Shown in pieces: positions 1,411 to 43,900 of a DNA stretch of 64,000 nucleotides. The stretch covers positions 124,001 to 188,000 of the forward strand of contig MDYQ01000128.1 in the NCBI GenBank assembly GCA_003024175.1, in the 5' to 3' direction. A model generated the notes under the pieces. The model had not been told where the DNA came from, ran no database searches, and saw only the letters and a program-made list of their open reading frames with translations. Every line of letters begins with the position of its first letter. The first letter of the stretch is position 1. The position numbers and the translations under genes are program-made. The DNA is from Planoprotostelium fungivorum. Taxonomy: Eukaryota; Evosea; Variosea; Cavosteliida; Cavosteliaceae.

Positions 1411-3555
1411 ATGAAGGACGGTGGGTTCTATTCTAAACGTAACGTCCATTAAATGTGCGATAGGATGGACAACAGAAGAAGTTTTATTACTATTGCATTC
1501 CGTTGAGAAGGTGATTCGTCTCATTTATTGTCCATCTCTCAAGACGTGGTGTCGATTGGACTCTATTCGATCGCATATTACCATTCTTATCGTCCGAACC
1601 AACATATCAACCTTCATTAGCACGGGGAGGATGCATGGTCCACTGTATCCGATGTTATGAAGGCTTACATCGAGAAATGCAACTCTCTGAAGAAAGGAGA
1701 CGAATCGGAACTCATCAGAGACCCTCAGATCTTCACTCAATCGGTGATGTCATCCCAATGAGGATCATCGTCCCCCACTGACGATCTTAAAGAGGTGTAA
1801 TCGAAAGTACAGTGAAGTCATCTCCGAGTTAAAGCCATCTAACGGAGGCAAACTGGGTGTGCATCTCATCATGTCATCAGGCTCGCATCACACGTCATCA
1901 CGAGTCGTTGTAGATGACATCATCGTACAGAGTCTCCATCAAAAGGAAAGAAGAGAGCGGAAGACAAGTACAAGACCGAAAGAATGGACGAACTGAAGAA
2001 GATGATCGAGGAGCAAGAACTGCAGATCAGAAAACTGAGGCTCGAAATCTCAGAGATCAACTCTGGAAGATGGGACGAGAAGGTGAAAAGATTGTGATGA
2101 GGTGATGGTAATGACTCTGATCTAGTTGGGGATCGTCAAAGAGGAACACAGTGGAGATGTGAGTATAGAGAGGATTCTAAGACATTTCACTTTTCTTTCA
2201 TTTCTTCACTTGATACACGAAAATAACGAAAAAAAGATTTGAATTTATCGAAAAAAAGTGAAAAAAAGAATAATCAAAAGGACAGGATGCACCCATTCAC
2301 TCACGCACTCGATCACTATCCAATACAAAGATGAGGTGTGATATCACATGTGACATCTCTGATGAGCTACTAGCCCCGTGAAAGACAACGGTTCGCTGAA
2401 TCGATCGCGAAGCTCGTCCATGAAGAGAAAAACCGATGAAATTCCGTCTGTTCCATCTACACCAGAGATTCCCACACCAGGGTGACCCATATCTCTCAAC
2501 GATATCTCACTATGATATCTCACCTGTGTATCACCTGTACATCTTACAACGATATCTCACCTGCATATCTCTCAACGAAATCTCACCTGTATATCTCACC
2601 CGCACATCTCTCAACGATATCTCATGTGTACATCTCACCACTCGATTGACACACGACAGAGGAGGGAAGAGACTGTTAAAGAAGACACCTTCCAAGAACA
2701 CGCCGACGCTGTCTCCTGATATGACAAAGAAGATGGAGAAGATCATTCAGATGCTGATCGAACACAAACACGGCTATGTCTTTAGATATCCGGTCACGAA
2801 CGAAGAGGCGCCCGATTACGATCGCATCATCAAGAGGAGGATGGACTTGTCCACCATACAGGCGAATCTGGCCGAGGGGGTGGGAGGTCGGGAGTGGCTG
2901 GTTGTAGATTGACGGGGGGCAGAAAATCGGGAGCGTGGTGGAGTTCTGGAGGGATCTGTTGTTGATGTACCAGAATGCGCTCAAGTATAATGCAAAGGGT
3001 GGGAGCCGATGATGCATCACATCATATCACATCACATCGACATCATGTTCCATCGGATACATGATCTCTCGTTTCGATGTTTGAAAGAGGATTGAAGTGG
3101 TCGGCAGGATCCGACATCTGGATCATCGCCAATGACATGAAGAAGATGACGGGAAAAGAGTTGGACCCTCTATTCGGTAGTGAAGGTCTCCTTCGGCCCA
3201 AGTCACTGCGTGAGATGACAAAGCTTAGAGGACAGACGACTGAAGTGAACACAGTGGCTGCAGACAGAGAGGTAGCCATGTTGCAGAGAGACAACGACCA
3301 GAGCGTCGTGGAATTTGAAGACGAACATGTGATGTGATCTTGTGTCCGATGGGTGATTGACGTATTGACAGTCGATGGATTTGGAGGATGAAGACGATGA
3401 GCCTCTCATCCTCCCATCTCCCAAGATCACGAAAGGTAATGGACATCTTTTCCCTCAAACATGGAGAAGCTGATGCATCTTTGACAGATCCAAAGAAAAA
3501 ATCAGAGGGGGGTAAGAAGAAGAAGTCACAGAGCAAGAGGAAGAGGGAAGAATAA
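1411..3555 (+). CDS. SANT/Myb - coiled coil - bromodomain protein (BRD8-like chromatin factor)
   Basis: Splicing 1421-1463 and 1511-1620 gives MKDGWTTEEVLLLLHSVEK followed by HGEDAWSTVSDVMKAY, a SANT domain at the N-terminus. A charged coiled coil follows (1930-2075, with MDELKKMIEEQELQIRKLR). The bromodomain is at about 2710-3180: YRIIKRRMDLST-like (here YDRIIKRRMDLSTI), LLLMYQNALKYNAKG and SDIWIIANDMKKM, with the conserved asparagine in the YNAKGSD stretch. The C-terminus is Lys/Arg-rich, a likely nuclear signal. SANT-coil-bromodomain order is typical of plant and animal BRD8-type NuA4 subunits, so acetyl-lysine reading in the nucleus is inferred. At least two introns (1857-1930, 2880-2922) contain the recurrent TCGTTGTAGA element. 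The region 2170-2370 between coil and linker was not fully resolved. Confidence 0.8.
2485..2640. repeat. Intronic minisatellite, about 24-bp unit
   Basis: The long intron before the bromodomain exon holds five to six diverged copies of a unit like ATCTCTCAACGATATCTCAC. Unit borders vary, with partial copies lacking the CAACGA piece. It lies wholly inside the intron. Confidence 0.75.
2880..2922 (+). repeat. Introner-like intron, sense copy (type A)
   Basis: This 43-nt intron of the bromodomain gene is almost entirely the shared element. Its core GGAGTGGCTGGTTGTAGATT is followed by GACGGG and a CAG acceptor. The same layout is seen in introns 15511-15547 and 38404-38442 of unrelated genes. Confidence 0.8.
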
Positions 3556-3660
3556 AGACATGGAATGTACCTTTCTTTTTATTAACACACCACAACGAGT
3601 GTGGACGGCATCTATATCCATTCAGGATCTGTCAAATCGCATCTCGCTGATGCGAGAAAC

Positions 3661-6530
3661 ATGAGTTCCATGTGGTCCAGCGGGTTCTTAGGAGAGAGTC
3701 CTGAACTCGAAGAGGATCGAGAAGAGATCGATCGTCTTCGAATCGTAATCAGGGATCACATACAAGACATCAGCATCAGGCTCTCTGAGATCAGAGACGA
3801 GCTATCTGCATCTGAAGATCACGACGACAGTTACGTCTATAAACTGAAGACCATCTTTGACGTTCAAGAGGTATGGATGATTACGGGCGTGCATTTTAAT
3901 TGTGACAGATCCTATCGACGGTTCCTGTGAAGAAGGAGGTCTTCAAGAAGAACATATTGCAAATCATCCAAAAGTCGAGCACCTCTGCTTCCCTCCGTCA
4001 GGTGATTTCTTGCCATATCCCAATGCGAATTCATCATCTCAACGAGGGAAGGTCTTCATCTTGAGAGGCATGGAACATTTCCTGTGGATTATCCGATGTA
4101 AATTCATCGTCATAGAGGATTACCTCAGTTCTACCCCCCTCGTGATGAAGTCGGTGCTCAGACTATCTAATGCAGTCGAAAGAGCCAGAGACGTGAGCGT
4201 CGCTCTCTTCTCATCCATCTGATATTCCTCAGAGATTACGCGCCCCGATGGGAGTCGATGGAGGGAACATGGAGCTCACCAATGAGAGACAGGAATTATT
4301 GTCGAAGGTCCAACAGCTGCAGAAGCAATTAGAAGAATCAGAGAGCGCCAAGTTCGAGTTACATCTCGAAGCCGCCACACTCCGAAAGCAGATGGAAAGG
4401 TGATGCCACGTCTTCATCTTCTGATGAGATGGCTCACTGTCTCGTGAAGGTTGCAAGATTCTTTCTACAGCTCATCTGTCGCTGGACCGAACTTTGGAGT
4501 GTCCACACTGCCAGCAAGAGGTCTACCTCTTAGCTCCTCTTATTCTTCATTATCGAATCCCAAAACTTCCGTCCCGCTCACGAGATCCATGGTGAGAGAA
4601 ATGGCGGGAAAACCGAATTGAGACTTTACAGAACCGAGCGGACACGATCGCTCAGATGGAACAAGTGCAATTGTCACCAGAGACGAGGAGGATATCTTAC
4701 TTTTCTGCCGTCAAGGTGCGTGGTAGACTCTTAAGACATCGCGATCATGTGGCGATGATGATGCTGACGAGCGTTGTAGAGAGCGGAATCGATGTTGCCT
4801 CCCAGAAGTGAGATCGTCTCCCCCAAAACGGTGGGAACGGAATTTCTCGGAAATTTCTCACCGACCATCAGGAGCCCATACCCAGACGCAGGAAACCAGA
4901 AATGGATGCGGAAAATTCACAAGAAGTTTCAGAGACGGAAGAGGAAGACATGAGGTCAGACATCATCCATCATCATGTCCGTGTCATCATCATGATGTTC
5001 ATCATCATTGTCTGAATCGAACGACAGGGACGAATTCTTAGACCTCCTCTACGATCTCGCCACCCCACGCCCTCCAAAGAAGAAACCACCCCCCGTCATC
5101 ACATCACCTCCCATCGCATCACCCTCTGCCTCTCCCCCCTCCTCCCCCATTCCAATCTCCCCGAAGAACTATCCCCCTCCACTCTCTTCATCACCTCCAT
5201 CATCATCACCGCCATCATCGTCCATCATCACATCATCGTCATCCGTCATGGGATCCACCTCTTCTTCATGGGAATCGACTTCTCCCAAGATCGACGGTAG
5301 TCCGGTATCTCCCACCATGTCTCCACGGGATAACGGAAATATCTGGCGGACGACAGATCGCACGGGAGTACCAAGATCTGCAGATATTTTCTTGAACCAG
5401 AAAGGCCTCAGGGCACAGACCATGAGTGCTCCAGCGCACTCGTGGGTATCGAGGAGGTCACCCAGTGAGTCCACCATCTACAACGAGACACAGAAAATAG
5501 ACTTTCTGACGAAATTTCGTGGAGATATCGTTGACTTTTCACAGCCATATCTTCAGTACCTGCAGAAGTGTCTGTCATCATCTATTACGGCAGCACTACG
5601 ACGACACAATTGAGAGCCAGAATCAAAGCCAACAACGACAGTACAGTCAGAGAAGTCATCCAAGGCTTCCTCAGCAACAACCGCGCGAACCTCTCGAAAT
5701 TGGAGCAAGATCAAAAGTACTCCCTGTTCGATCCTTCTTCGAGGCTATATTTAGATCCAGAGTCCACCATGGGAAGGTACAACTTTGGGAGAGACGTGAG
5801 AGATTCCGCAGAAATTTCGGGTGATGACGTAATATGATGTAGGTGAGGTTAGATCTGAAGGTCAGCCCGGAAGAAGATGTGACGAGGGAGTTTGTCATAT
5901 TGACAGTCACGGCGCCACAGTTGATCGATGCGACACTGACGGTGAAGATTGAGAGACACAAGACGATACTCGATGTCATACAGAGAGTGAGGGGCTTCTT
6001 TATTTGTATAGATGAGAGCGTCTCCTCATCGTTCGTCATCACATCATCACAACATCACATCATCACAACATCACAACATCACATCATCACAACATCACAT
6101 CATCACATCATCACATCATCACATCATCACATCATCACACATCACATCATCACAACCTCACAACATCACATCATCACAGCATCAACACAACGATGATTGT
6201 GACGATCACTCTCTCGATCATCACAGTGATCACCTGTACATCATCTCGACATCTCACCCGATCGTCCATACATCACCCTCATCATCACCCTCCATCACAC
6301 GTACGTACGTATCAGTGACGGAACGACAGGTTCAGAAGAAAGTGGCGGGAGAAATAGCCGTTGGAAAATGGGGGATCCAATTGGATCGAAAATGGTTAGA
6401 CCCTAGGAGCAGGATCTCCTCGTTCGATTTTGTACACATGGTGGGTCACAATATTTCGTACCCGTCTACAACTGACCCGAAACAGCAACCATTGGTTTTT
6501 TTGAAAAGAGATAGTTTGACTCTGAGATGA
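3661..6530 (+). CDS. Coiled-coil, Ser/Pro-rich protein with C-terminal ubiquitin-fold/RA-like region
   Basis: Not assigned to a named family. The N-terminal exon starts MSSMWSSGFLGESPE and continues into a helical, acidic region. A second coiled coil (4240-4400) has LLSKVQQLQKQLEESE. A long Pro/Ser tract follows (about 5050-5300: PPPVITSP and runs of S and P). From 5540 the chain becomes globular: VSVIIYYGSTTTTQLRARIK, then LFDPSSRLYLDPE, VRLDLKVSPEED, VTERQV-free VQKKVAGEIAVGKWGIQLD and QPLVFLKRDSLTLR before the TGA. Two hydrophobic, basic modules of this kind suggest Ras-association or ubiquitin-like folds. That is inference from pattern only. Introns at 4716-4779 and 6441-6485 carry the TCGTTGTAGA element in sense and antisense. 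A long intron (about 5990-6330) carries a CATCACA repeat. Confidence 0.62.
6030..6190. repeat. CATCACA-type simple repeat in an intron
   Basis: Imperfect runs of CATCACAT and CATCACAA fill about 160 bp of the 340-nt intron between the VIQR and VQKKV exons of the coiled-coil gene. Open frames across it are an artefact of the repeat. Confidence 0.85.
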
Positions 6531-6608
6531 TGTCTTTATGTTTCATCGTCATCATCACGATGATGCATGCGACGGGAGAGATGAAGAGGGATCGTGAGCG
6601 AGGAGAAA

Positions 6609-7831
6609 TCAGCTGCCCCTCTTCTGTTCTAATATCCATCTACAACGGTTGAGAAATAGATGAGATGGCTGATGACTCACTGTCCGACTTGGATGTTGTT
6701 GTACGTGATAGTCCATGCGTCGTGGTGCACTTTCGGGTAAATCGTAAATTTGACGTTTTTTGCGTTCGCGTTCATCAGCGCTTGGTACATCTACAACGAG
6801 TCAGTATGAGTTTTGGCGGGAAATACCAGAAATATCGCAAAAAGATGTGTGAAATTTCGTGGAATCTTACCTCCTGACTGTGTTCGAGAGGTACGATGCG
6901 ATCGGCATCACCGTGGAAGATCCTTTTCAAGTTGAATTTCAAGTTTCAAGTTGAAAAACTCACCACTGAGGAATCTGGGCTGTCCTGTGGATATTCGAAG
7001 CGACTTCTCCGCAGATGGGAACAAGGCTGGCAAATCTATAGACATCAGTCATCGAAGGTGGACATGATGTGACGAAGGTGATGATGTGATGGAGAACATC
7101 ACCTCTCTGAGCAGTAGACTCCGAGCTCCCAGACACCGCAGCCTCCCATGGAGAAACCAGTAATGTGAACTCGATCGAGATCGACTTCGAGGTTAGGTAA
7201 CATCTGGACATCTATCATCTTCTGCGATGGAGGTGATGTGAAAGATCACCTCCTCTAACAGAGCGTTGAGCACATCGGCCTTCCATCCGTAACCGTATTT
7301 CTTATCTAAAGAAGGAGACACCGTGATGAAGTTTTCTGCGTAAAACTTACAGACCTTTGGGGTTTTAGAAGTGTATGAGACGAAGAAAATGAAGTCACCT
7401 CTTCTGGAACGGGAGTGCCTGAAAAGTCGTCACTGGATGGATTCTCTGATTGACAATAAGCAGGGATGTCGATCTTGGGCTCCTGGTATCTGTCACGTGA
7501 CGTAATCGTCTTGGTTGCCACTCACTTGGCCGTCTTTTAGACGATCGTAGCACAAGATGATCTTTGGAATTCCGTGGCGAAGGGTGTATTGTATATCGCC
7601 TTCTCCATTCTGTGACTCCCCAGATCCGTGCAGGAACAGTAACAAAGGCCACCCTCTTTCAGGCTGTATCGATTTCAGACGGGAACTCTATTCGCACCTG
7701 CTGACCTTCTGTCCAGAGGGTGTCGATACAAAGTAATCGTATCCAAATTTTCTCGTTGTCTTCGTCTGCCGATAGAGCTGGAACGATATGTGTTTCGTCT
7801 TGGCTACCTCTGGCAGCTTGATGAGCTTCAT
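6609..7831 (-). CDS. Alpha/beta hydrolase (predicted esterase/peptidase, LpqC-like)
   Basis: Joining exons in phase gives a YFVSTPSGQKPERGWPLLL start of the fold with LFLHGSGE (oxyanion region). The nucleophile elbow is HITGFSMGGCGVWELG (Ser of GFSMGG). An acid strand IFHGDADRIVPLEHSQ and a catalytic histidine in YPKVHHDAWTITYNN follow, and the chain ends WILEQKRGS. This order is characteristic of secreted or cytosolic carboxylesterase-like hydrolases. The substrate cannot be inferred. The start is set at the ATG of MKLIKLPEVAK (7831); upstream codons in the same frame lack an ATG. The last two introns (6640-6680 and 6791-6870) both end in CGTTGTAG, so the recurrent element provides their 3' splice sites. 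Confidence 0.82.
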
Positions 7832-9132: not shown

Positions 9133-11387
9133 ATGAGTGAGGAAACGGAGATAGAGACGACGTATCCTTGTTCAGGTGTAACGGGAGTACAAGGTGAGTC
9201 GAGCAGAGGAGCTCTTTAAAAACCGTTAAGACATCCGACCGCCCGTCATACATCCTCCAACACCATCTTCTATATCCATCTGCGATATCTATTGATTATG
9301 AAGTCACCGACCCCTTTCCACCAGGGCGGCGACCGACCATGGAAGATAGTCACATCGTAATCGATGATGTTAGAAAGGAATTTCCAGATATCACCTTCTC
9401 TGGAGAGGAAAAGATAGCTTATTATGCGGTCTACGATGGACATGGAGGACACAGAGCCGCCGCCATGTGCTCTGCTCACCTTCACAAGTCCATATTAAAT
9501 GATCCCGCTTTCAACGAGGGAGACGTAGAGAAGGCCATCAGAAACGGGTTCGCTTCCACAGACAGGTGATTTCGAAGATTGTCCATTATCGTGAATATCA
9601 TTAAAGTTCGCATCACACGATTGACATAATGGCAGCCTCATCTTGAGCACATCGGTCACAGAGGGATGGAGGGACGGTTCGACCGCCGTGGTTGTCATCT
9701 TGGTCGGTAGCACTCTATACATCGCCAACGCCGGTGATTCAGAGGCTGTCTTGGGAAGAAAAATCACGACCGAAGGTGAAACATCCCTTCCCATTCGATC
9801 ATAATGTGATTCACATCCATCAGATGAAGTGGAAGACAAGAGCTTGGACGACTACACTCAGCCAACAGGTTTCCAAGCCACACTCTTATCCGTCAAACAC
9901 AAGCCATCAGAGCCATCAGAGAAGGAGCGCATCAAGCAGGCCGGAGGTGATGCAACTCTCTCGATTTATTCTGAAGCCTCTCAGGTCACGTGGTGATGGG
10001 GAGAGTGATGGGATCACTCGCTGTGGCAAGATCTCTCGGAGACCGAGATTACAAGCATCCACACAATCAGGCAGAGGGCGACTTTGTGTCAGCTGAGCCT
10101 TATGTTCAGAAGGTGCAGCTGTCAGAGAAGGATCAGTTCATCATCGTGTCCTGCGATGGATTATGGTAGGGATTCGCAGATTCGCGGAATCGCAGATGCT
10201 GAAGGAGAGTAGGGACAGGACGAATTATCAGCAGGCGGTCAACTTTGTCGTCAAACGTAGAGAAGAGAATGGAATGGTGAGTCACGCCTCCATCATCATC
10301 ATGTCCATCACGTCCATCACGTCCATCACGTCCACATCATCGTCATACCACACCGTTGACCTCTTCGATCAGGCAGATAGTACGGCCAGTTCTCTGGTCC
10401 AATTTGCGATAGAGAGGGGCTCCCTGGATAATGTGACAGCCATTGTAGTATTCCTAACGAAACAAGACCCACCAATCACTCCAAGAGCAGAGCCCGTCGT
10501 TCCTCCTATTTCTAACGGTGAGGCGTTGTAGATCGTCGCAATCGATTGAGACCCCGCAGTCCCGGTAGATAAGGTGGCGGGGGTCAGTAACATCAATGTC
10601 TTATCACCGAGAGATTTAGACAGAGTCAGAAAGCACAAACTACCATCGGGAGAGCCCATATTGGAGGGTGAGAGGTGTTTGGCTCGTTGTAGATGGCTGA
10701 CGTCATCAGCCCACTACTGTCAATTGCAAGGAAAGATGCTGCACCAACAGGGGACGATGCTCGTGACCCCCTCGGCCATTCTGTTCTGTTATTCGCAATT
10801 TGGAAAGAAGAAGACGGTGACATAATCAGTTGTAGATGGAAGATTCTGAGATGTTTCTCAGAAAAATATGTGTACGGATCAGATCCAGTCGATTCACTTC
10901 ATCAATTCACTCCCAGGCATCTGGATCAATTACAAAGGAAAAGAGGTGATTTATTGTCCATCTACAACCGGTCAACTCACTCTACTACAGTACAAATTCA
11001 TGTGGAAAGATGGCAGCGCAAATATGAACAGTTTCCCTAAATTGGGAGAGATGAAGGCCAAAATCGATCAGATGGCCAAGGGGGGCAACCAACCCTCAAC
11101 CCCTCCCAAAGACAATCCAGGTGAGCGTCTACAACGAGCCACTCCCGACCCTACCCTGCCTCGAGATTGACACGTCACAGCGGCACCGGAAGGCGAGGCG
11201 GATGTGACAGACGACGAAGACGGAGTGCCCGAGCTGCATGAGGACAGGAAGGTGAGAGATCGCATGAGATACATCACGATCATGTCTGATGGAGTTTAAG
11301 GAGGACGGAAAGACAGAAGAAGGTAACGCACCAGTGACATCAACGTTCTCGAGCGTCATCGGAAATTGGAGCCGGTTCGATGCATAA
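9133..11387 (+). CDS. PP2C-type protein phosphatase with C-terminal GRAM-like domain
   Basis: A metal-dependent Ser/Thr phosphatase. After intron 9194-9324 the chain reads GVTGVQGRRPTMEDSH, then YAVYDGHGGHRAA, DGSTAVVVILVG, LYIANAGDSEAVL, VMGSLAVARSLGDRDYK and FIIVSCDGLWDRTNYQQAV. These are all the core PP2C motifs with their metal-binding aspartates. Downstream exons join in phase to a second module: LSPRDLDRVRKHKLPSGEPI, AHYCQLQGKML, GTMLVTPSAILFCYSQFGKK, then IQSIHFINSLPGIWINYKGK and YKFMWKDG. This matches a GRAM domain (membrane lipid binding). An acidic tail ends RFDA. The GRAM part has no in-frame ATG of its own, which favours a single gene. Five introns after the phosphatase domain carry the TCGTTGTAGA element, in either orientation. 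Confidence 0.82.
10300..10345. repeat. 9-bp tandem repeat (GTCCATCAC) in PP2C intron
   Basis: Three to four tandem copies of GTCCATCAC lie in the intron after the GLWDRTNYQQAV exon. Confidence 0.8.
10668..10709 (+). repeat. Introner-like intron, sense copy
   Basis: This 42-nt intron in the GRAM part contains TTGGCTCGTTGTAGATGG then CTGACG. Its core is nearly the same as introns 2880-2922 and 15511-15547. Exon frames on both sides are held by a TCATCAG acceptor. Confidence 0.75.
11121..11180 (-). repeat. Introner-like intron, antisense copy
   Basis: This 60-nt intron of the (+) gene has the element inverted. TCTACAACGAGCCACTCC follows the donor, and a separate GTCACAG acceptor closes it. Confidence 0.75.
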
Positions 11388-14394: not shown

Positions 14395-16736
14395 TCATTC
14401 AGACATTCCCGAGCTCCTCTTCAGTTTCTCTTTGCTGGCCGTTCGGACGAGAGACTTGAATGAATCGGCGAGATTGTCCGTCAGGCTCTTGATGGACCTT
14501 CGTTTCGGTCGAGATGACTCTGCCAGCACTTTCTTATCGATGGCGCTCTTCATCTGTTCCGTGAAGAGGCAAAAGTGTTGCGACCTGATCACGAGTGAGT
14601 TCCATCGTGATGTGATGATCGTGATGATCAGTTCCGTTCACCTCAAGAGTTGATTGACAAAGTCTCGATGCTGTGGAGGAATATTCAACGAGATCTCTTC
14701 TATCTTTGACAGCGAGTCGAGGGAGAGGCTAGAATCACCCGTGGGAAGGGCAGGGATGATCACCTGTGACTGTTCAGTGGAATCTCATCTTAGTACGAGT
14801 ACCTCGTCCAGCAGCCACTCTTGATATTTTCTGAAGGGTGAAAGTAATTCTTCGGCTAGTTTGGCTCTCAGCTTCGATTTTGCAGAGACGGATCCAGGTT
14901 CGTTCAGTTGTGATAGTTTTTTCATCGCCTCCTTGATGGGTTTGATCGTGATACGAATGAAGGAATCTTCCGTCTACAACGTTGTAGATCGAATAAAGGA
15001 TATAATAGTTCTTCCTTGGGTGGCTCGGGTAATCGGAACGGCTGTTCTAATTTACCCGTGTCCAGATCATACACTAGGGCCTCCTTCTTCAACCTATCTA
15101 CCACATCTGGTTGCGATGGCAACCTCACGATGCCGTACAAGAAGGGCACTGTGACGTGTCAGCTGTCAGATTGACACGTTTGACATCACCCGGTGCCTCT
15201 AAACATTCGTAAAGCTCGCTGGGAAGTATGGGAATGAAGGGACCCTGCATGACGTAGGGTCTAAAAATAGGCAGCAGCGACAGGCTGGACGCGTCAGGTC
15301 ACATTCGAATGAGATATTTCACCCCACAGCCGATAACAAACCCATGTCCTCCGACACTAAGACAACCTGGCCCGTCAGTCACTGAATTCCAGCGAAATTT
15401 CACCTGTTTTTCCAATAGAAGTGATCGATATACCGCCAGAATATTCGCCAGGGGCAGACGATGGAAGGTCGTTGCGACTCCCCACAGTGCCAGCTGCTTG
15501 TCCTCGTCGCCTGTCCCGTCAGTCTACAACGAGCCACTCCAACTCACCTGGTGGACATTGAAATTCGATGGATCGAAGTTCACCGGGGATCTGGAAGGAG
15601 AGAGAGGCATCTTCAGAGGGTGGTTCTTTTTCGTAGTAGGAGCGTAAGAGGGAGAGGACTGCTTCTTCTTGTGATTCAATGATGCCGCACGCTGCGTTCA
15701 ATTTCCTCAGACGTTCTCTGGCTGAATGGATTTGTCAATGAGAGGTGATGATGATGATGATGATGATGTGAGATGGAGGTGGTGATGGTGATATGATGAT
15801 GAGGTGATGATGGATGTGGGGAGTAGGTTTGGTGGTGGATGGTTCACCTATGATGCTCTGCAAGACTTCAAAGTGGAGTTGAAAGAAGGGAAATCGAGAC
15901 AAGAGACAGTAACACCTGAAAAGAATTAGTTTAGAATGAATGAGAAGAATGAACGAGTAGAATGAATGAAAAGAATGAACGAACCGAGGAGCAAAATAAT
16001 CCAATGGTGTACGTGTCTCGTAGGGTTGTCCCTCTACGACCAGAATTTCCTGTGAAATCTCAGTGAAATTCCGACACATAACCCCACCGGTAGCAATGGC
16101 TTGGCCTGTACACATCAGATCGAAATGTCATCGAATTTTCTCACCTCCAATGGAGTCATCTCCACGATGCACACACCGTACATCAGATGATCTTGTCCCG
16201 TGATCACAAAGATGTAAGAATTGGCTTCGGCCACGATCTACAACGCTCAGTCTCTACTACATCTCGATAGACATCTCACTTTCGATTGACTCCCGTACAT
16301 CATCTCATTAAAGACAGATGATGACTTTGTTCTCTCGACAGCCACGATGGATACCCCGACTGGAAAGCAGAAATGAGGCAGATATTCGAACGGAACGCTT
16401 CGTTGTAGATCAGCTTTTCCTCAAAAGTTTGGGCGGGAAAACGTCCCCCTCACCTGTCTTGTGCGGGAAACTTTGCGATGATGTGTGGAGGGAGCTCTGA
16501 TCTGGCTTCTATTTCATCCAAACCGTGTTGGTCCATGTTGCTTGGGAGTCCAACAATGACAAAGTGTTCAAAGATCTTACCTGAGGCATGATATCAGATG
16601 GGCAATCGAATGGATGGAGAGACATCATCGAGGACGTATCACCGGTTCGAGGCGGTCTTACGGCATTGGCGACGGAGTAACCGATGGGTGTATGTTCTTC
16701 AGAAACATCTGGGTGATGATCGAGTGTGAGTTCTCC
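14395..16736 (-). CDS. DENN-domain protein (putative Rab GEF), 5' end unresolved
   Basis: At least ten short exons join in phase. uDENN: IFEHFVIVGLPSNMDQHG, FEYLPHFCFPVGVSIV, YIFVITGQDHLMYGVCIVEM and CYCLLSRFPFFQLHFEVLQ. cDENN: LALWGVATTFHRLPLANI, VYRSLLLEKQ and PYVMQGPFIPILPSELYE. dDENN: VPFLYGIVRLPSQPDVV then VYDLDTDSFIRITIKP and EEQ-like C-terminal helices ending LKRSSGMSE. DENN domains act as guanine-nucleotide exchange factors for Rab GTPases. The partner Rab is unknown. The true start lies upstream of SVANAVRPPRTG and was not fixed. Four introns carry the TCGTTGTAGA element: 14967-15055 (palindrome), 15511-15547, 16238-16279 (acceptor) and 16398-16453 (antisense). Confidence 0.83.
14967..15055. 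repeat. Intron with a perfect palindrome of the introner core
   Basis: The core appears in both orientations fused head to head as TCTACAACGTTGTAGA, 16 bp, fully self-complementary. It sits about 6-21 nt from the 3' splice site of a DENN-gene intron. Confidence 0.7.
15511..15547 (-). repeat. Introner-like intron, sense copy (37 nt)
   Basis: This is among the shortest introns in the window. After the donor it is only GGAGTGGCTCGTTGTAGACT, then GACGGG and CAG. It is the clearest case of an intron made of the element alone. Confidence 0.82.
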
Positions 16737-17220
16737 CTAAAGACGTCAGTGATTACAGGGGAACGATCGGATCGCACTTTTAGAGGGACCGCAAATGACG
16801 TTCGTCTCTGCTCGACCTGTGGATTCTCTTTGGCAAATATACTTCTGATACGTCGTGAGTGGATCTACGATATAAACAGTTACTGCAGTGCGGCGGGGAT
16901 AATGGGTGATGATCTTTTTGTCGTCGCGTGTTCAGCTGTTTCATTTTCTACGGAGTTCTTTCTAGACGTATTGTGTACTCCAGGTGTCGGCAGCCACATG
17001 ATGGATAGATGTGCGTGCTCGGGATCTGGCTGGCGACAAAAAGTTGACGTGCTGTAGTCTGTGGGTGTGATATTTCGGTCTGGCACGGACGGTCCAGAGG
17101 GGTTTCGGTTAAACTCAGGAAGGTTGTCAACAGGCCACAAATATCACCTAGATGTTGAGGAACTTGCGTTTTCACAAGATAAAAAAGTATCAGATGGAAC
17201 CTGCGCTGAATGGCAAAAAG
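16737..17220. other. Unresolved region upstream of the DENN gene
   Basis: It probably includes 5' exons or promoter of the DENN gene on the minus strand. Open frames on both strands lack recognisable motifs and none could be joined with confidence. Confidence 0.35.
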
Positions 17221-17304
17221 TCCCAACACCCGGACTCGAACCAGGAACCTATAGATTACAGTGACCGCTACAGTCTACCGCGCTACCAATTGCGCCATGT
17301 CGGG
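17221..17304 (-). tRNA. tRNA-Tyr (anticodon GTA) with 11-nt intron, copy 1
   Basis: The reverse strand folds as a full cloverleaf. The acceptor stem is CCCGACA/TGTTGGG, the D arm GCGC/GCGC, the anticodon stem GTAGA/TCTAT and the T stem CCTGG/CCGGG with loop TTCGAGT. The anticodon GTA is at 17271-17269. An intron of 11 nt (CGGTCACTGTA) lies one base 3' of the anticodon, the standard site for nuclear pre-tRNA introns. Five T residues follow the discriminator A, as for RNA polymerase III termination. An almost identical copy lies at 24225-24308. Confidence 0.96.
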
Positions 17305-17525
17305 TTGATGGTCGATGGGGATCTTTCAAGTGCCAGTTCGCTGATCGAGTTATAAAAACAAACGATCGTGATCCATCGATCGACCAATCCTTTGTTGAGC
17401 ATGTCACTTGCACAATCTGTTATGTGATTCAGTACTGTCTGTAAGTGACATGGGCTATTAACCTATCAGAGAGCCACACCAGTAGAGGGGTCACGTCACA
17501 ACACTCGATGATTTATTTAAGGATC

Positions 17526-18011: not shown

Positions 18012-18472
18012 GGTACCTTCATCGTCTTAGAATGCACGTCGACGGCTCACGCGCATCACCTGCTGAGATGAGGAGAAGGAGGTGTTTCGGCTGCTGTTTC
18101 TGTTCTGAATGATGAAGCGGTTCTCGTGCAATTCCACAGAGGCTTTCGCGTACTATTGCGAACAGTTGTCAAATCGCTAGCTCAACATCGCGATTCTCGC
18201 TGCCCCGTCTGACATTCATATTTCTATATTGACCTGCACCCATCATTGGTGAGCTCGTTGTAGATGATACCTATCAGGTACGTACACATCAAACGTTGAT
18301 CATTCTCGTGGTGGTTTATGAGTGATGAGTAAAGTGTTTGCATAGAAGAGGAAGAGGGTCATGGTTCGCGTCGCAAGGTGTGATGATGTCATGAGATGAA
18401 TGTGCCCGGATTTTTCAGGAATAAAGAAAACATTCACTATCTTTTTATCGATACTAACAGACCTAGTATCCT
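18012..18472. other. Intergenic region with an intron-like fragment
   Basis: Mostly featureless. At 18249-18277 there is a 29-nt stretch that looks like a minimal intron: a GTGAG start, then CTCGTTGTAGATGATACC, then a CTATCAG end. No coding exon flanks it. Confidence 0.4.
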
Positions 18473-23935: not shown

Positions 23936-24224
23936 AAATAAAGGATGAGGAGAATGGGAAATAGATGATGTGTCAAGATGTTAGTGCAAGATACGAGATC
24001 ATTTGAGGAGAACGATTTCATTCAAGTGGCTCAGCCAATGACGGATGAGAAGGTGGTGCGACTGCCAATGGATCGTCCTCGTGATCGAAGCCGAAGATAA
24101 TGAGGAGGTCATCGCACATCATGTCGATGTCGATCCTGACGCCCCTTCAGATCAACACCGAAGTCACTCTCCTCGTCTCTGAACTGTGGCAACTTACATG
24201 GAGCAATGAAAGGAAAGCAAAAAG

Positions 24225-24308
24225 TCCCAACACCCGGACTCGAACCAGGAACCTATAGATTACAGTGACCGCTACAGTCTACCGCGCTACCAATTGCGCC
24301 ATGTCGGG
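24225..24308 (-). tRNA. tRNA-Tyr (anticodon GTA) with 11-nt intron, copy 2
   Basis: Matches the first copy at 17221-17304 base for base through the mature tRNA, intron and T-run. Flanking sequence differs outside about five bases on each side. The same cloverleaf and intron position apply. Confidence 0.96.
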
Positions 24309-24552
24309 TTGACGGGCGTTTTCTGAATCACTAATCGCAAACTGTATATTATCGCATAACTTCCATTGTCCTCTCTATTGATCTTTGGTAAATAAACTTG
24401 GCTGGAGAGCACAGTATATTGCAACAAGTTTTCATACTCAAAATATTGTTCCATGGTTGTTACGGATGGTTTATAAATTGATCGAAATTTAGAAGATTAT
24501 TCTCCTTTTTCGCATCGCAACATCATACATCACTCGCACCCATCAGAAACAC

Positions 24553-31108: not shown

Positions 31109-34100
31109 TTATAAAGCGATTGATTGGTGACCGTATCCCTCTTGATGATCGGTTGCGCTCTGAACGGCTTGCTCTACGGTATTGTGATAGAAGAGACTCT
31201 CTTCAGGTGCTGCCCCGATGATGACTGCGGATCGAATCAGACAGTCTTCTGATGATGATGGTGACTCACGTGATCCTTCACTGTCCATGGAATTGAGGAT
31301 GGTTCCTCTACCAAATCTACTGGAGTTGGAGCTGGTGCTCCACCGTGATGAAGATTCTCCGAAGCGTGCAAGCGATAACTTCCTCCGGATATCATCCTGA
31401 AGATAATCCATCAGTCTTCAACAACACGACCCAATCGTTCACCCTGACTGCAACCAAGTGTATCTCCATGAAATATCCGTGACTCTTCCACCTTCCCTCT
31501 CCCTTCAATTGCTCGACCACTTCGAACAACTCGTCGAAGTCAATATCGTTCTACATCCCGCCAACCCACCGACATGAGACCCGAAGCATCGACTACGGTG
31601 ACGGCCGACATGTCTAAGACGAGAGAGCGTAGTGGAGGTAGATCCTCCACGACGGACATCACTCTGTGGTGTCGCGTTCTCACCGTAGAAGCTCTGAGTG
31701 TGGGATCTTCTGACCAATTGTCTGCCGTGGTGTTGACGTGGACGGAGCACCATTTGTAGATCTGAATGGTTAGATCAGCAGGGTTCGAAGATAGAGGTGA
31801 TGAAAGAGTACGCATGGATGATGAGACGATCACCTCGTTCATGATGCAGTTTTGAACGTGCTCGCGGGCTGGGAATACTAGAGGTCCTTCTATACGAAGA
31901 ACGATGATGCCGGCCGGCCACCTTCTCCCGTCAGTCTCGCCAGAACTTTCGCGTGATACTCACGTCATACCCTTATCGTTGATCGAAGATTGTACGCACA
32001 CGTGGGGGATGTTCTCCAATTGCCTGATGTGAATGACTTTTGGCCTGGCGATCTGGTAGAATAACACCGATATCGATATCGCAGCCGCTGATAAGATTCC
32101 AATCTATTGTGATTCAACAGAGTGATATCGATGGGGGAGAGGTCACCTCTACTCCCACGAAGAACGTGACTAAGAGGGCAGTCGTCGATGCAACCAAGTC
32201 AAAGACTACGTGATGTGAGTCGTGATCGTGTTTCGATACATGTTGAAAATCTCACAAGAGACTCTCCATAGGTTGATCGTCACTTCGTGCGTGATGACCA
32301 AGTTGATCACCGCGCCGATGATGATGGCCGCCAATGTGGCTGATGTCATCAGCTCACGAAAGGGAGTATGTATCACCTTGTGGTATGAAATGAAAGAGAG
32401 GAGTTAAGAATAACAACGCGGCGATCACGATGAGGCCGGAAAATATTCCGGTCAACGGTGAGTTGACTCCGGCTTGCGACTGTATGGCGGACCTGTCACT
32501 GTTACGTACGTACGTACGGTCACGTGATCACCTGGAGAATCCGCCTGTCATGGGTGTGGCACCAAATATAGAACCGATCATATTGACGAAACCGAGGGCG
32601 AATAATTCTTGGTCAGTAGAGATCCGATAGCCTCCCTTACGAGCTAAATTTAGATGAGTAGGTGTTGAGACGTCATGTGGACTATCTCACCGAGGGCACG
32701 AGCGATGGCGATGTGCTCCAGAACGGTAGCCAGTAGTAACACGATCAGATCGGAAGAATCATCGAAAATTCTCTTGAAGGCTACGGTGGGATTCGTTGGT
32801 GGTTTTAATCCTGTCTGTGATTACTTTCAAGCTCAACTGATGAAGATTCTATTGTGTGATGATACACTCAATATATACGAATTGAATGTGAGAAGAATAT
32901 GTCGTGGATTGATGTGATGAGATCTCCACCTTCAGGTACGACACCGAGGACAGCGATGGGATAAGAAGATTGATGTCTGCATATCAGATAAGATACCAAT
33001 GTCGATACGGACAGTACGACGGCAAACTTGCAATTACACAGCAACTGTGACTCGGTCATCATCATCACCATCAACGACATGATCGTGATCGACCATCACC
33101 TTGACCCAGACTCGATCTCTGTACTTTCTCTTGAGGTATTCCACCGCAGACAAGAGGAACAGAGAGACGATGCCGAAGCCAAAGTCCGCCCAATTGATCT
33201 CTCTCGAATGTTCTGCGAGGCCTTGGAAGATGGAAATCGTGGACTGACGGCTGCTGACCGCATGGATCCCAAGAAATTCGGGTAGCTGAGAAGACAATGA
33301 GTCATCGGTGATGGTGTTTCTGTGAGATGATGTTCTCGATCATCTGATCGTGTGGATGATGAGGGGACAACTTCTCACTTGGGTGACAGCGATACCTAGA
33401 GAGGCTCCGAGGGTATAGCCAGATAGAACTGGTGCCGACATGAAGTCCAAGATGATGCCTGATTGAAGGTGAGCGGAGTGTGTGGAGAGAGGGCTGACCT
33501 AATCTGAAGATGCCCGCTGCGAGTAAGAACATGCCAGAGATGAATGCTGTAGATGTGGCGATCTGTGATGATCAATGGGCAGCATGCCGCGAGACATCAC
33601 GTACGACAGCTGGGCTGAGGCCATCGATGCTATTCAACTGAGTGACGATATTTCCAGTTAAATAACAGACCACTGCTGTTGGTCCCAGACTGACATCGCG
33701 TGATGTACCGACCAACACGTAAAGAAGGCAAGCCAAATAGGCACTATCTCACGTCAACTGTAGGTCCCTTCAATAAATCGCACACCTGTATAGACCAAAC
33801 TCGACGGGCACATTAGCCAACTAAAATCACTCAGGTGAATGAACGATATCAGATTGGATCCTCACTTTTGCATAAGCCAGGCCTTGTGGAACGATCATGA
33901 CACCGACTGTAATACCCGCAATGAGATCNTATCTCACGTCAACTGTAGGTCCCTTCAATAAATCGCACACCTGTATAGACCAAACTCGACGGGCACATTG
34001 GCCAACTAAAATCACTCAGGTGAACGATATCAGATCGGATCCTCACTTTTGCATAAGCCAGGCCTTGTGGAACGATCATGACACCGACTGTAATACCCGC

Positions 34101-34110
34101 AATGAGATCG
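31109..34110 (-). CDS. SulP-family anion (sulfate) transporter with STAS domain, interrupted by an assembly gap
   Basis: Membrane part: LIAGITVGVMIVPQGLAYAK, VPVEFGLYSAYLACLLY, LGPTAVVCYLTGNIV, FMSAPVLSGYTLGASLGI, LGFVNMIGSIFGATPMTGG and FSRSAIQSQAGV. The soluble C-terminus has a STAS domain with LRSLVLDMSAVTVVDASG. Together these are the SLC26/SulP architecture for sulfate or other anions. A Ser-rich tail follows (NSMDSEGSRESPSSSED) and the frame closes at 31109. The 5' end is unresolved: an N at 33929 separates two near-identical 180-bp copies of the same exon region, and the start codon could not be joined in frame. The exon list between 31900 and 33700 was read by motif only. Confidence 0.78.
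33745..34109. repeat. Direct duplication flanking an N (probable assembly artefact)
   Basis: 33745-33928 and 33930-34109 are the same sequence apart from two single-base changes and one 4-bp insertion, separated by the single N at 33929. This looks like two alleles of one locus placed end to end across a gap. Confidence 0.85.
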
Positions 34111-34570
34111 CCCAATAGCCAGCGAGGTTGGTAGCGGCGTCCCCACTTGAATTGTCAGTCATTTTTGAGAGAGAAGGATCACTTTGAGTATCGGAAATGT
34201 GTTCAGGACATGTGTTGGAATCGAAGAGGGTAGATTGTGAAGACATGATGTGGTGTAATTGAATGCATGTTGAAGGACTCGTTTGGTGTCTGTATTTTCG
34301 TAGAATCGAGGTCCAGATCGAAAGAGGAAGGGCTCCTCTTCGGCCTGCATCTTGCGATGATGGGAGTGTGTCAAATAATTGGGCTTGGACGCAAACACCG
34401 AGAATATTCCACATCATGAACAGAGATGAATTGCACTTAAAGAAGAAATATATATCCATCTGTGTCTGACTATCCTCTGAGAGCCTTGAATGGCACCATC
34501 CATCCTCCGCATAATAAAAGATATCGTGGGTAGCGTTTCATCAGATAGAAAGAACGACATAGATTTATCT

Positions 34571-37444: not shown

Positions 37445-39795
37445 TCACCTTCCTTCGGGGAAGTCTCTCAGTGTCGTGTCGTTGTATACTTTCAATTTTC
37501 GTACCTTCTTTAGAAATTCCTGTGTCGAGTGAGTCCATGAGGTGAATGGTAAGAGACTCACGGTCTTGTCTGTACTCTTCTCTCTTATCTTGTTGACGAC
37601 TAACTCTCTGATTCTGGATTCTGCCATCTTCTGTGCCGTTGCACTGTTGATATCTACTATGACGTCAATCAAGTTCGTATGGACGAGTCATCTCACCTTC
37701 TGCTTCCTCTTCTCCTGGAATACGATCAGCTCGTTGTAGATAAGACATCCTTCATATCCTCACCTGATTTGGGTACGTCGGCCCACGGGCCCGGTACTTT
37801 GAGTACTCGGATCTGATTGTTCATAAAGTCTTCTATCTTCTCCACCAGAGCCTTCTCGTCTAATTCTGTCGTGCGGTTGCCCACAGTCAAGATCTGCGTT
37901 GCCTTTGAAACGAATGTGATGGCCCTGTTCATTTGAGAATCGTCCGAGGCTGACGACAGCCTCACCTTCCCTTCTTTCCCGCGCGACCCGTTCTTCCCAC
38001 ACGGTGGACGTAATCCTCCGCCGTAACGGGCACGTCAAAGTTGATGACGTAAGGCAGAGAGGGTACGTCGATTCCTCTGGCCAAAACTTCCGTCGACACG
38101 ATGAACTGGATCTCGTTCTGTTTGAATCGCTCCATCCTCTTCTCCCTCTCGCTGGGTGAGTGCTCCTTGTGGACTGACGCACTCTTGAATCCAGCAGCTT
38201 CGATGGATTCGGCCTGAAACGATTCAACATCGCGGACGATGAGATGGATGGGAGGGAGCTCACGAGTCGATCGGCTCTCTGTCTCGTCCTGCAGAAGATG
38301 ATGGCCTGTTTGTCACGGAGGGAGACGTTTCCCGTCCTTCGGATCAAGTAGAGTAGAAGGGCTTGCTTCCTCCTCGGTGTCACGTGAAATGCAATGTGCT
38401 CGACTGTTTGACCTCAACGTCAATCTACAACGAACCACTCACCTCCCTCGGCCACACTCTTCGATTCGTTGAGATCGACGATATCAGCTTCTGGTGCCAA
38501 CTTTTTGATCATGTCTTCCACCTTGTCCGTCAGTGTCGCAGAATACATCAGGATCTATCGATGTCACTCCGTTGTAGAGAGCCGTCTCGCCATCACCTGC
38601 TTCTTCTTCGTGTGTCGCGAATATTTGGGCAGCAGCTTCCACACCGAGATGACATCGGGGAGGAGCCCCATGGCCAGCATCTTGTCGCATTCATCTACAA
38701 CGATCATCTTCACTTGAGACAAGGATATGAGTGGTGATTCTGTCGGTATCAGCACAGAGCAGCCATTCTACTCCACCTCTTTCGAGCAGATGTCTCAGCC
38801 GCCCCGGATTAGCCACCGTGATCTCTATCCCTTCCGTCTTCTTCTGCACGAGGTCAGATGTCACGTGAGATATCGTACGTAAGAGGAAATCTCACGTGTA
38901 CGGAATCCGGTATACCACTGTGGACGCAATTGACTTTGGCTCTTCCACCTTGCATGTGTTTGCTCAGAAGGCCCACGTGTTCTTCTACCTGCTTCTCTTC
39001 AATTCGAACGATCGTGAGAGGTACTTCACCTGCTCGGCTAACTCTCTCGTGGGTGTTAGGATGAGGACAGAGGGTGTCAGTAGTTTCTTCACTTCTTCCA
39101 CCGTCTCCTCCGTCTTCTCTTCCGTCTCGACTTCCTTTCGCACGTTGTGAATCAGCTGAAGGGCCGGGATGACGTAAGCTGCCGTTTTACCCGTGCCAGT
39201 TCGATCTGACGCGACCACCTGATCATCCATCGTGAGATCCACGTCTGATCGATGGGATCGAGATGACTCACGTCTGATCCCATGACGGCTCTTGGTATAC
39301 ATTTTCTCTGGACGTTCGTCATGTATTCGTACTGAAGATCCTCCGTGGCCTTGATGATCTCTGGGGCCACCCTCAATCCAGTGAATTTGGCCAGTCTGAA
39401 TCCTTTTCCAGACAAGACGGCTTCTCTGGTTCAGTGTCTCTCTCTCGGTTGATATGGTTCTCACTCTTTTCTTCTCTTCTGGTTAATTCCTCTTCTGCCA
39501 TCTGCTTCGCATCTTCGTCGGTGATCTCGGACGATGTGAAGCTCTCGGTGGGTGGAGTGGATTCAGACGGAGAATGTGTGTCTTCGTTTCCCTCTGGAGA
39601 TGCGGGCTCGACTGGTGTCACTTGTTTTGGAATGGGTGCAGATGGTTGTGATGGTGGTCTGGTCGATTTTTTCTTGGGTATATATTGATTCTTGATGTCA
39701 GATTCTTGAATATCAGACAGATCAACTGTTCCGTATGATGATGTTGATCCGATTCGCTTCACTAGAGATCCATTGACATGAAGTTTAGTAGCCAT
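37445..39795 (-). CDS. DEAD-box family RNA helicase with DECD motif II
   Basis: N-terminal exon MATKLHVNGSLVKRIG with an acidic Ser/Pro linker. Q motif region: FRLAKFTGLRVAPEI. Motif I: ASDRTGTGKTAAYVIP. Ia: LILTPTRELAEQ. Ib: ITVANPGRLRHLLERGG. Motif II: MIVVDECDKML, i.e. DECD rather than DEAD. III: LMYSATLTDKV. IV: KQAIIFCRTRQRADR. V: VSTEVLARGIDVPSLPYV. VI: YVHRVGRTGRAG. The C-terminal exons read LDEKALVEKIEDFMNN, AQKMAESRIRELVVNKI and VYNDTTLRDFPEGR. ATP-dependent RNA unwinding is expected. DECD is known in UAP56/Sub2, but the flanking sequence does not match that family well. Three introns hold the TCGTTGTAGA element (37715-37763, 38404-38442, 38555-38596). Confidence 0.88.
38404..38442 (-). 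repeat. Introner-like intron, sense copy (39 nt)
   Basis: After the GTGAG donor it reads TGGTTCGTTGTAGATTGACG, then a short unrelated 3' end with a CAAACAG acceptor. It matches introns 2880-2922 and 15511-15547 in other genes. Confidence 0.82.
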
Positions 39796-40745: not shown

Positions 40746-40950
40746 ACATCTTCCGAAATCACGTCCTCATATCACTCGTATGACTCGTCATCTCGTGCAC
40801 ACTTGTATTCATTCACAATCCAATCGATCTATGCAGAGTACACGCGAATGGCTGCGTGCCTCGTGAGAGCTCATGTCACTGAATGCATGTTTCCATCGAA
40901 CACATCTGTATTTCTTGTTTATATTTGATCCCTGTACAAAGTAGGTCCAC

Positions 40951-43900
40951 TCAAAACTGATTGGGAACAGCAGGCTCTTCTCCTATCTCCCCCTCGCTCT
41001 CACTCTCGTATTCTTCTTCCTTCTGTTCGTCCACCATCTCATCTCGAACCACCTGCATCTCTCGTCACCTTTACACCCCAACCGAACTGAATCACCTGCA
41101 ATTTGGCACTGAACGTCTGGAAGGTGATGGGCTTGGTCAGATAATCATCCACGAGGGTTCTAAACAATTGATTCTTCTCATCCATGAGGGCGTTGGCGGT
41201 CAGAGCGGTGACGTGCGTGTGGCCCAACTCTGGCCTCTCAGATTCGATCCTCCTGATCTCAGACGTGGCTTGTGATCCATCCATGACTGGCATCTGACTG
41301 TCCATGCTGCCGATAGAGGTGAGGCGATGGTCGGTGTAGATAGAGGGACTCACAATATGCAATCCCACGGCTCGAACCTCTGGTGGGCTTGCAGGAATTT
41401 CTCGACGCCTTCCTTTCCGTTATCTGCCATCTCGTAGACGACACCTTGGATTCGCTTCAGCATCAATTGGACCACTCTCTGATTCGTCTTATCATCCTGT
41501 TCTACATGTCATCCTCTCTCCATCATCATGATCATCATCATCACCTCCACGATGAGAATGCGTATGTCTCTCTTTCCCTCCGGTTGCGGTGAATTCGGAA
41601 CGATGACTGGCTGTACCGGACTGCTCACGGAAGAAGAACGATGACTGACGTTCGATCGAGGAGAGATCGGTGTCGTCGCATCCTCCGATGGATCCAGTGG
41701 AACGCTCGTCACGTTCAGTCGATTCGGTGAAGGCTTCGTGTTGGTGGCAGGGGCGGTGGTGGTGGGAACCTCTTGAGTGAAACTGGACGATTTACCGAAA
41801 CTGGGGGCAGGGCCAAAGGAAGGAGCTGCACCGAAGGAGGGAGCTTTACCAAAGGAAGGAGCCGTACCGAAGGAAGGAGTTGCACCGAAAGAGGGAGCTG
41901 CACCGAATGTGGGTGGAGCTGCACCGAATGTGGGTGGAGCTGTGAATTGTGGAGCGGCTGTCACGATGGGCACCGTGTTCGCGGGGGTGAGGGTGAGAGT
42001 CGGTGCGATGGATGTGGATGGAACGGAGGTGAAGGTGGGGGGGGCTGTGAAGGTGGGAGGAGCGGCAGCGGTGAAAGTGGGGAAGCTGATGAGAGGTGAT
42101 GTCGGGTGGACGACGTCTACTTTTCTGACGGTCGGTGGATTGTTTTGTATCAGCGAGGGAGGTGCAACGAAACGAACCGTTCCCGGCTGTGAACGTGTGA
42201 GATCGAAATTCTTCTCTTCGTTGTAGAGGAACGGAAACGCACCTTGTTGATGTGTCTGCTGGATCTAGACGTACGAGATGACACAGATGAAGATCTGGAT
42301 CTTCTCATCTGATCGTCTGATGGAGCAGGATAGATCCGGCTGTTGGGTGCCTGAACGCTCCTGGACACGCGTCAGCTTCCATCGAATGAGATCAAAATTT
42401 GAAACTCACCGAATGACATGTGCGATCTTCTGAATGCAGAAGGGCCTTCGAATGAGACCCAATTTAAACTCTCTGTAATCGTCCGGCAGCTGATGGGATC
42501 AGAATGAAGGAGAAGACGTGATAATCTCACCTCTTTTGTCGACCGATTCGAATAGTGAGTGACAAAGAAGATGTGAACCGAGACGCCCTTTGAGCGTAAA
42601 GATTGTAGATAAGACGTGTCGATCGTTGAAGCCTTGTGTAATTCCACGATCAACGTCAGACGGTTGATAGATCCCACACCATTGGGCCTGCGATCGTTCA
42701 GAAATTTCTGTTACATATCTCGTTCGACGCACGAATTGGAGGCGTCTGGTTGTAGTTGATCCATCTTGTCCACGTGTTCGTTCAGTTCTTCCATCTACAA
42801 CGCTCAGTGTGGATCGAAATATCTTCTTCACCTCTTGGAACGACACACAGTCGTAGTTGTATTCTCTCCTGAGTGTCTCGGTCAAGAGAGATCCCACGAT
42901 GGTGTTATCTGTGCAGAGTAATACCAAGTGTTCGGGAGTAGTGTAAGAATCAACGATTTCAGCGGGAGGACTGCTGAATCTTCTCGTGGGAGATCTATTG
43001 TGTGTCAGTTTTTATATGAGGTGATAGAGAATGACAGATAGAGGTTAATGAATAGAGATTGATGTATAATAAAGATGGATGTATAGGAAATCGATGTTTC
43101 CAAGTTGATGTGTACAAGATGTAGCGAGATGGAAGATGACTCACTCGTTGAGTGAACCATTTGGAATGAGGAAAGTGAAAGTGGTGCCCACACCCACTTC
43201 AGAGGATACAGTGATCGATCCTCCCATCAACTCCACCAACTGTTTCGATATACTCAGACCAATACCCGTTCCCGGCTTACGATCGGCCACGTGTCTCTCC
43301 ACCTTCGCGTGTCAGCTCCGTTCACCTTACTTCTCTCACCTGGAAAAATCGCAGGAAGAGATTCTGAAGGTCCTCCTGACTCATACCTGATCCTGAATCG
43401 GCCACTTTGAATTGAACCATCGGCTGCCCCCCGGCCACTTTGATGCTCGACACGGTCAAAACGATCTGTCCCCTCGCAGTGAATTTGACGGCGTTGCTAG
43501 AGTGAGTCAGGTGTGGAGGAAAATAAGATACGGACCTGAGTAAGTTGTAGAGGATCTGACGGACTCGGTTGTCGTCCGTACGGATGGTCTCCGGGCAGTC
43601 ACGTGACACGGCGTAACAGAACTCCAGGTTGCCCTTCTCGTACATGACGTTCATGGAATTGAGAGAATTCTCCATGAAGAGTCGAAGGTTGACGGATCCG
43701 TACGTCAGCTTCATCTTACCCTGCTTCAGTTTCGCAAACTGAAACGAGGTCAATCCAAATGTGTCCGTCTCATGCATCGAAAAAAGGTTCAGATGTGACG
43801 AGATCACCTCGAGTAGATCGTTGATGAGAGCTAAGAGAGAATTAGCGGAAGTCTTGATCATGTTGATCATCTCCGTATCACTCTCGGCTGAAGCTTGGAG

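Follow-up and report, generated by a model that had tools for sequence, protein, structure and literature searches.

A short DNA word with an almost invariant core in the very short introns of Planoprotostelium fungivorum, a putative protein-binding site

The window analysed here is a 64,000-nucleotide stretch of DNA deposited as Planoprotostelium fungivorum (C65:124001–188000, from an assembly of 36,859,091 base pairs (bp) in 471 contigs). The species is placed in Amoebozoa, class Variosea; according to passages of PMC10639083, the record is mislabelled and represents Protostelium aurantium, for which 265 minor introns are given there. Very short introns of unrelated genes share a DNA word close to CTCGTTGTAGATGG, which has an almost invariant core, GTTGTAGA, and occurs singly or as a back-to-back palindrome. 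Among non-coding DNA, the word is nearly confined to predicted introns. We read it as an orientation-neutral, often palindromic DNA word under selection, and probably as a putative protein-binding site gained inside existing introns; we give this reading a probability of about one half. The initial annotation of the window had taken the same sequence as the mark of recent intron gain by a mobile introner. Its observation that one word is common to introns of unrelated genes in both orientations was borne out.

The unselected sample comprised the window and the first 200 kilobases (kb) of contig C1, 264 kb in total. The gene finder was trained on these 264 kb alone, without RNA, and all introns described here are predictions. 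Its intron content model uses three-base words, so the 8-mer discussed below was not taught to it. It predicted 101 genes with 939 introns, which have a median length of 42 bp, the donor GTGAG, and a branch-like position upstream of a CAG acceptor. The gapless alignment of the deposited protein with the product of our predicted splicing of the gene at 6609–7831 matches at 270 of 272 residues and spans both of its introns that end in GTTGTAG. Alignments to Pfam and to a structure database continue through several predicted intron junctions. In these alignments, the DENN domain (residues 65–261) is interrupted by a predicted intron at residue 147, and the DEAD-box alignment spans predicted junctions at residues 361 and 398. 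No match was obtained in a protein search that used the middle part of the PP2C-domain gene as the query.

The 8-mer GTTGTAGA or TCTACAAC is present at 34 places in the window (16 and 18, respectively) and at 91 places in the first 200 kb of C1. The initial annotation was right about the enrichment, and its count of about 28 in 64 kb was too low. The 125 places are distributed among predicted introns (78, or 1.57 per kb), intergenic DNA (10, or 0.19 per kb), and exons (37, or 0.23 per kb), while the base totals of introns and intergenic DNA are similar (49,611 and 53,246). The bodies of 43 of the 911 introns of at most 130 bp contain the 8-mer, where 20 dinucleotide-preserving shuffles give an expectation of 0.65. 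Of the 939 predicted introns, 72 (7.7%) contain the 7-mer GTTGTAG or its complement; these 72 are referred to below as motif introns. Genome-wide counts are lower bounds, and the reversed word served as the control. The 12-mer CTCGTTGTAGAT occurs at at least 2,299 places in 36.9 megabases, compared with 8 for the control. Sixty-nine of these places, in 60 stretches from C1 beyond 222 kb to C7, were taken from the first 100 of the 2,299 (C1 to C8); 56 are in predicted introns, 12 in exons, and 1 in intergenic DNA, and the intronic number may be one too high, as the predicted motif intron of stretch L083 is probably a coding match. The sample omits five listed places (one on C1 and four on C4), four of which were already in the 20-mer sample described below, as well as C5:99 and places beyond C7:101860. 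Judged by eye, the exonic matches look like ordinary coding sequence, for example I-Y-N-E.

Conservation is far stronger in the core of the word than elsewhere in its intron. Exact copies of CGTTGTAGA occupy 67 places in the introns of the 264-kb sample, and its one-base variants, counted along the nine positions, number 11, 4, 6, 2, 1, 0, 0, 4, and 3. Trimmed introns contain 45 exact and 30 one-mismatch places, compared with 0.0 and 7.3 in shuffles. Genome-wide, CTCGTTGTAGAT with at most one mismatch occurs at at least 7,102 places (control 228). Another base at the left-flank T is found at at least 925 places (control 7), and another base at the central core T at at least 63 (control 6). The 18-mer of the long-core family is intact in 75 copies, altered at one outer T in 18, and altered at the core T in none. 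The conservation profile around the core is graded, and the intron sequence outside the word mostly differs between copies. The core thus hardly varies while a neighbouring base does, and we rejected an old, evenly decaying family of elements because even decay would give similar counts at the core and the flank. An invariant core with graded flanks is what a binding site is expected to have, and the word has both. Its occurrence is orientation-neutral, and as a putative binding site it would work in either orientation.

The word occurs in three recurrent left-hand contexts: GAGTGGCTC, which defines the long-core type; CTGACTC in combination with a GTTGTAG acceptor; and the mirror sequence CTACAAC, which makes the word palindromic. 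The 20-mer of the long core, with up to 3 mismatches, is present at at least 962 places genome-wide (reversed control 2), CTGACTCGTTGTAGAT at at least 227 (control 0), and the palindromic 18-mer ATCTACAACGTTGTAGAT at at least 287 perfect places (control 0). The palindrome is internal to the intron in 10 of the 939 predicted introns, and a single 41-bp intron in stretch L089 holds three cores. Outside the acceptor class, sense and antisense copies are about equally common (55 and 49, p = 0.62, with palindromes counted on both sides). In the 264 kb, 22 of 50 sense copies terminate exactly at a predicted acceptor. The exon that follows such an intron starts with AT in 19 of 22 cases, compared with 160 of 939 for all introns. 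AT continues the word, so the conserved sequence extends past the splice border into the exon.

The distribution of the word within and among genes is uneven. Only 5 of the 72 motif introns are in the first fifth of the introns of their genes, which is a depletion (p = 0.0045). The word is unequally spread among genes (permutation p = 0.002) and clustered in 20-kb bins (n = 53, variance-to-mean ratio 2.5, not reached in any of 5,000 simulations; the bins omit C6, for which no place is listed, as well as C8). Genes with a longer coding sequence have a higher share of motif introns (rho 0.35, p = 0.001). Guanine-cytosine content was set aside as an explanation, its correlation being weak at most (rho 0.21, p = 0.053, for third positions). 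The gene model c1_g52 (C1:138808–148414), in which 9 of 48 introns carry the word, joins stretches that are recognisable by eye as telomerase reverse-transcriptase-like to other sequence. A second palindromic word, TGACGTCA, was noticed in the window and C1:1–200000, where 31 of its 40 places are intronic, 7 exonic, and 2 intergenic. The branch-like TGAC may be part of it, and the bases next to it are more variable than those around the main word. In addition, an inverted repeat of 111 bp with 93% identity and a short spacer is located at C1:13897–14247 (L010), with a relative at C1:21875–22002. It resembles a small inverted-repeat transposable element, and its spacer holds one copy of the 8-mer.

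The relative age of introns and word was compared in nine kinase stretches, paralogs of the C1 gene richest in motif introns. Eight of them gave gene models, and L134, which gave none, was dropped. At kinase position 1391 in phase 0 (1391/0), the intron carries the word in c1_g68, as a palindrome, and in L132, in the long-core-like form GATGGCTCGTTGTAGTTTGACG. An intron without the word is present at the same position in c1_g8, L129, L131, and L135. The models of L129, L131, and L135 are less sure, as a second predicted intron leaves a 7-base exon after 1391, and the match to c1_g8 is independent of them. No intron at 1391/0 was found in the models of L130, L133, and L137. At position 1457/0, the intron has the word in c1_g68, where it forms the acceptor, and in L132; the intron is present without it in L129, L130, L133, and c1_g8, and was not found in the models of L135 and L136. 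Because paralogs lacking the word have these introns, the introns at 1391/0 and 1457/0 appear to be older than the word, which differs in form between the two carriers. In directed comparisons of paralogs with 40–60% identity, sharing was found for motif introns in 12 of 36 cases and for other introns in 14 of 65; the corresponding numbers at 20–40% identity are 5 of 27 and 12 of 143. Most of these comparisons concern a single kinase family, and the 40–60% class includes 10 distinct motif introns. The 85–100% class, in which 30 of 30 motif introns are shared, mostly represents the same locus twice and is uninformative. The sharing of motif introns is no lower than that of other introns, and in this small and uneven sample there is thus no sign that motif introns are younger.

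Similarity among whole introns was assessed with an introner filter re-implemented after PMC9860276, without the separate protein-similarity step. The filter accepts introns of unrelated genes whose similarity comes as close as about 10 intronic bases to each splice site, and families of at least four members; pairs from the same gene were removed, as were matches that ran to the outer end of both exon flanks. In 40-bp introns, a shared 20-bp core is nearly enough to pass. The 937 unselected introns alone gave two passing pairs and no family of four. The addition of 327 introns from targeted stretches (95 from 20-mer, 206 from 12-mer, and 26 from kinase stretches) gave 58 further pairs among the added introns and 15 between added and unselected ones. 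One cluster of 38 introns was formed. The 20-mer stretches contributed 28 of its members and the 12-mer stretches 4, and the other 6 belong to the unselected sample of window and C1. Seven of its 65 links are in the opposite orientation. The similarity that the initial annotation had noticed among the window introns starting at 2880, 10668, 15511, and 38404 is borne out by this cluster, which includes all four. The whole 43-bp long-core intron, with up to 3 mismatches, is found at 4 places: a tandem pair on C37, a single copy on C48, and window position 2880. Three of the four are copies of one duplicated gene segment, the C48 copy having the same flanks. The C37 segment is an in-gene tandem repeat of about 243 bp at C37:41567–42430 (L032; the 97% identity comes from L004, which covers this place). 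Both copies hold the same long-core intron, and the segment has a relative at C48:4920–5539 (L054).

Introner insertion was further examined through flanking repeats and intron length. No repeat at fixed spacing flanks the copies, as the target-site duplications proposed for checking in the initial annotation might have done: the best 5-mer was found in 3 of 57 copies, equal to the permutation maximum of 3, and repeats at varying distances would escape this search. Two sub-types of 28 and 11 copies likewise have no fixed-spacing repeat beyond permutation. Target-site duplications and terminal inverted repeats are not present in all introner families. Motif introns do not differ from the others in their length distribution (p = 0.85), so that secondary insertion of the word into existing introns was rejected. 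Reverse splicing of intron RNA would yield a single orientation, and was set aside by that reasoning. Recent insertion of introners as the main account, which was the interpretation in the initial annotation, is set back by the filter result for unselected introns, by the repeat and length results, by the four whole-intron matches, by the two kinase introns common to paralogs lacking the word, by the undiminished sharing of motif introns between paralogs, and by the near-invariant core with differing flanks.

Several observations weigh against the word being a binding site gained in place. The confinement to introns is incomplete, as 10 of the 125 8-mers in the 264 kb are intergenic, and a transcription-factor site would not usually be so scarce in intergenic DNA. 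Instead of a graded series, the left flanks form discrete types (GAGTGGCTC, CTGACTC, and CTACAAC), a pattern that suggests some descent by copying; either composite sites or partial descent by copying could produce such types. In-place gain rests on two positions in one kinase family, and five other kinase motif introns, at 1368 and 1426 in c1_g68 and one each in L130, c1_g60, and c1_g8, are exactly common to no compared paralog. In the recent paralogs L077 (C1:336640–337340) and L086 (C1:376550–377250), two of the three intron differences are inside the word, with opposite halves of the palindrome altered in the shared intron, one per copy. The strongest result against a binding site is the 38-intron cluster that passes the introner filter, with the core in 37 of its members. 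Copying may therefore explain a part of the word set.

Descent of the word from mobile introners is, in our judgement, rather unlikely. Short non-autonomous elements would have inserted into exons in either orientation and become introns, of which the core, or only the long-core sub-family, is still recognisable. Such an origin would explain why near-identical introns occur in unrelated genes (the intron at 2880–2922 and its C37 counterpart agree in 41 of 43 bases), why long-core copies exist in both orientations with left arms that look related by eye, and why the word is nearly restricted to introns; the 38-intron cluster, with its oppositely oriented links and six unselected members, also favours it. 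It agrees poorly with the scarcity of whole-intron matches and of passing pairs among unselected introns, with the absence of a fixed-spacing repeat and of a length difference, and with an invariant core between differing flanks. Moreover, the long-core-like copy in L132 occupies an intron position common to paralogs without the word.

Copying could also have operated on a smaller scale, if templated repair or ectopic conversion had transferred word-bearing intron fragments to other introns, with no new introns formed. We regard this as unlikely. The linked left-flank types are consistent with short-patch copying, as is the 24-bp long-core stretch kept in an intron of the tandem paralogs L041 and L042, whose aligned proteins are 43–44% identical. 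However, conservation fades gradually from the core without a sharp edge, and we know of no established process that pastes 10–20 bp in either orientation. A role in the pre-mRNA, where the word would act as an acceptor or splicing enhancer, is very improbable. The sense copies that end at a predicted acceptor and the deposited protein that fits splicing at two such introns argue for it, but antisense copies are as common as sense ones outside the acceptor class, which does not fit a strand-specific signal, and many introns with an internal sense copy have, by eye, a TGA branch-like stretch and a separate acceptor. A protein-binding site fits better than either a splicing signal or the relic of an element because the word is orientation-neutral and palindromic, has an invariant core, and can be present three times in one intron.

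As a putative binding site, the word would be recognised by a sequence-specific DNA-binding factor, which could probably bind as a dimer and would act in gene bodies, away from first introns. The factor might position nucleosomes, license transcription, or regulate particular genes or regions. Ordinary mutation, subject to selection, would create and remove sites within introns already present, and exons, being coding, could not freely host them. A word at the end of an intron would double as the splice acceptor, with its last bases exonic, and the long-core sub-family may also have spread by copying. More tentatively, it is possible that the candidate factor reads introns rather than promoters, and that thousands of later-intron sites, dense in some regions and turning over inside existing introns, mark gene bodies. 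Such marking might serve nucleosome phasing, protection from silencing, or region-wide control. Three specific roles were considered and rejected: nucleosome-sized spacing, as the lengths of the flanking exons are no different (p = 0.47); first-intron enhancement, given the few motif introns in the first fifth; and sense-antisense pairing within a transcript, as several genes have, by eye, a single motif intron or one orientation. No published report of the word was found in the literature, judged by titles and the openings of abstracts, and a search for CTACAACG together with intron gave nothing relevant at that level among the matches listed. If the binding-site reading is true, introns of about 42 bp, which have little room beyond their splicing signals, carry a second DNA code, distinct from splicing and seldom found in intergenic DNA, on which selection acts strongly. 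It would also call for caution in introner surveys, as a conserved binding word in very short introns can mimic an introner family.

Of the 21 window introns that the initial annotation listed as containing the word, the independent gene finder recovered 20 with identical coordinates. They belong to 7 gene models, where 9 genes had been stated. The remaining one, an antisense copy on the minus strand at 16398–16453, lies in sequence that the gene finder called intergenic. The word is in the sense orientation inside the plus-strand introns at 1857–1930, 10518–10559, 10668–10709, and 10817–10861, and in the long-core introns at 2880–2922 (plus strand, 43 bp, of the GAGTGG.. type), 15511–15547 (minus strand, 37 bp, within the DENN domain), and 38404–38442 (minus strand, with the DEAD-box alignment crossing its junction). 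It forms the acceptor at 4716–4779 on the plus strand, where GTTGTAG is followed by A across the splice border, and on the minus strand at 6640–6680 and 6791–6870, the two introns that fit the deposited protein, as well as at 16238–16279 and 42795–42831. Antisense copies are present in the plus-strand introns at 6441–6485, 10946–10990, 11121–11180 (long-core type), and 25959–26043, and in the minus-strand introns at 37715–37763, 38555–38596 (inside the DEAD-box domain), and 42187–42242. The minus-strand intron at 14967–15055 contains the palindrome CTACAACGTTGTAG. The gene finder added two introns to the list, one on the plus strand at 5465–5544 with an antisense word and a doubtful one of 338 bp at 18100–18437. 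Two other repeats were noticed in the window. Identical 96-bp stretches at 17213–17308 and 24217–24312 each contain a minus-strand transfer RNA gene of equal score, and a tandem duplication of about 184 bp, 96.7% identical, is located at 33745–34109, where a gene model begins that by eye resembles a sulfate transporter.

The word can be compared with four known systems. The word resembles intronic sites of transcription factors or general regulatory factors in being a short graded motif with an invariant core, in its presence in both orientations and as palindromic dimers, and in its clusters in genes; unlike them, it is seldom intergenic and is underrepresented in the first fifth of introns, the part in which they usually concentrate. 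Plant intron-mediated enhancement motifs favour promoter-proximal introns. The word shares their enrichment in introns, whereas its positions, with 5 of 72 in the first fifth, are not promoter-proximal. The periodic An/Tn clusters of C. elegans are reportedly located in introns. According to PMC7725773, they are non-coding DNA thought to act within genes, which makes them an analogy of function only, as they are long periodic A/T runs and the word is 9–14 bp long. Protostelid or variosean names were not found in main-text passages of PMC9860276. As in introners described in parts of PMC9860276 and PMC7789003, similar sequence recurs in both orientations and many copies across introns of unrelated genes in a compact protist genome, and our version of the similarity filter of PMC9860276 accepts the long-core sub-family. 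Unlike introners, most motif introns share the word alone, with neither a fixed-spacing repeat nor a length difference, two sites are at shared intron positions, and the core is invariant between free flanks.

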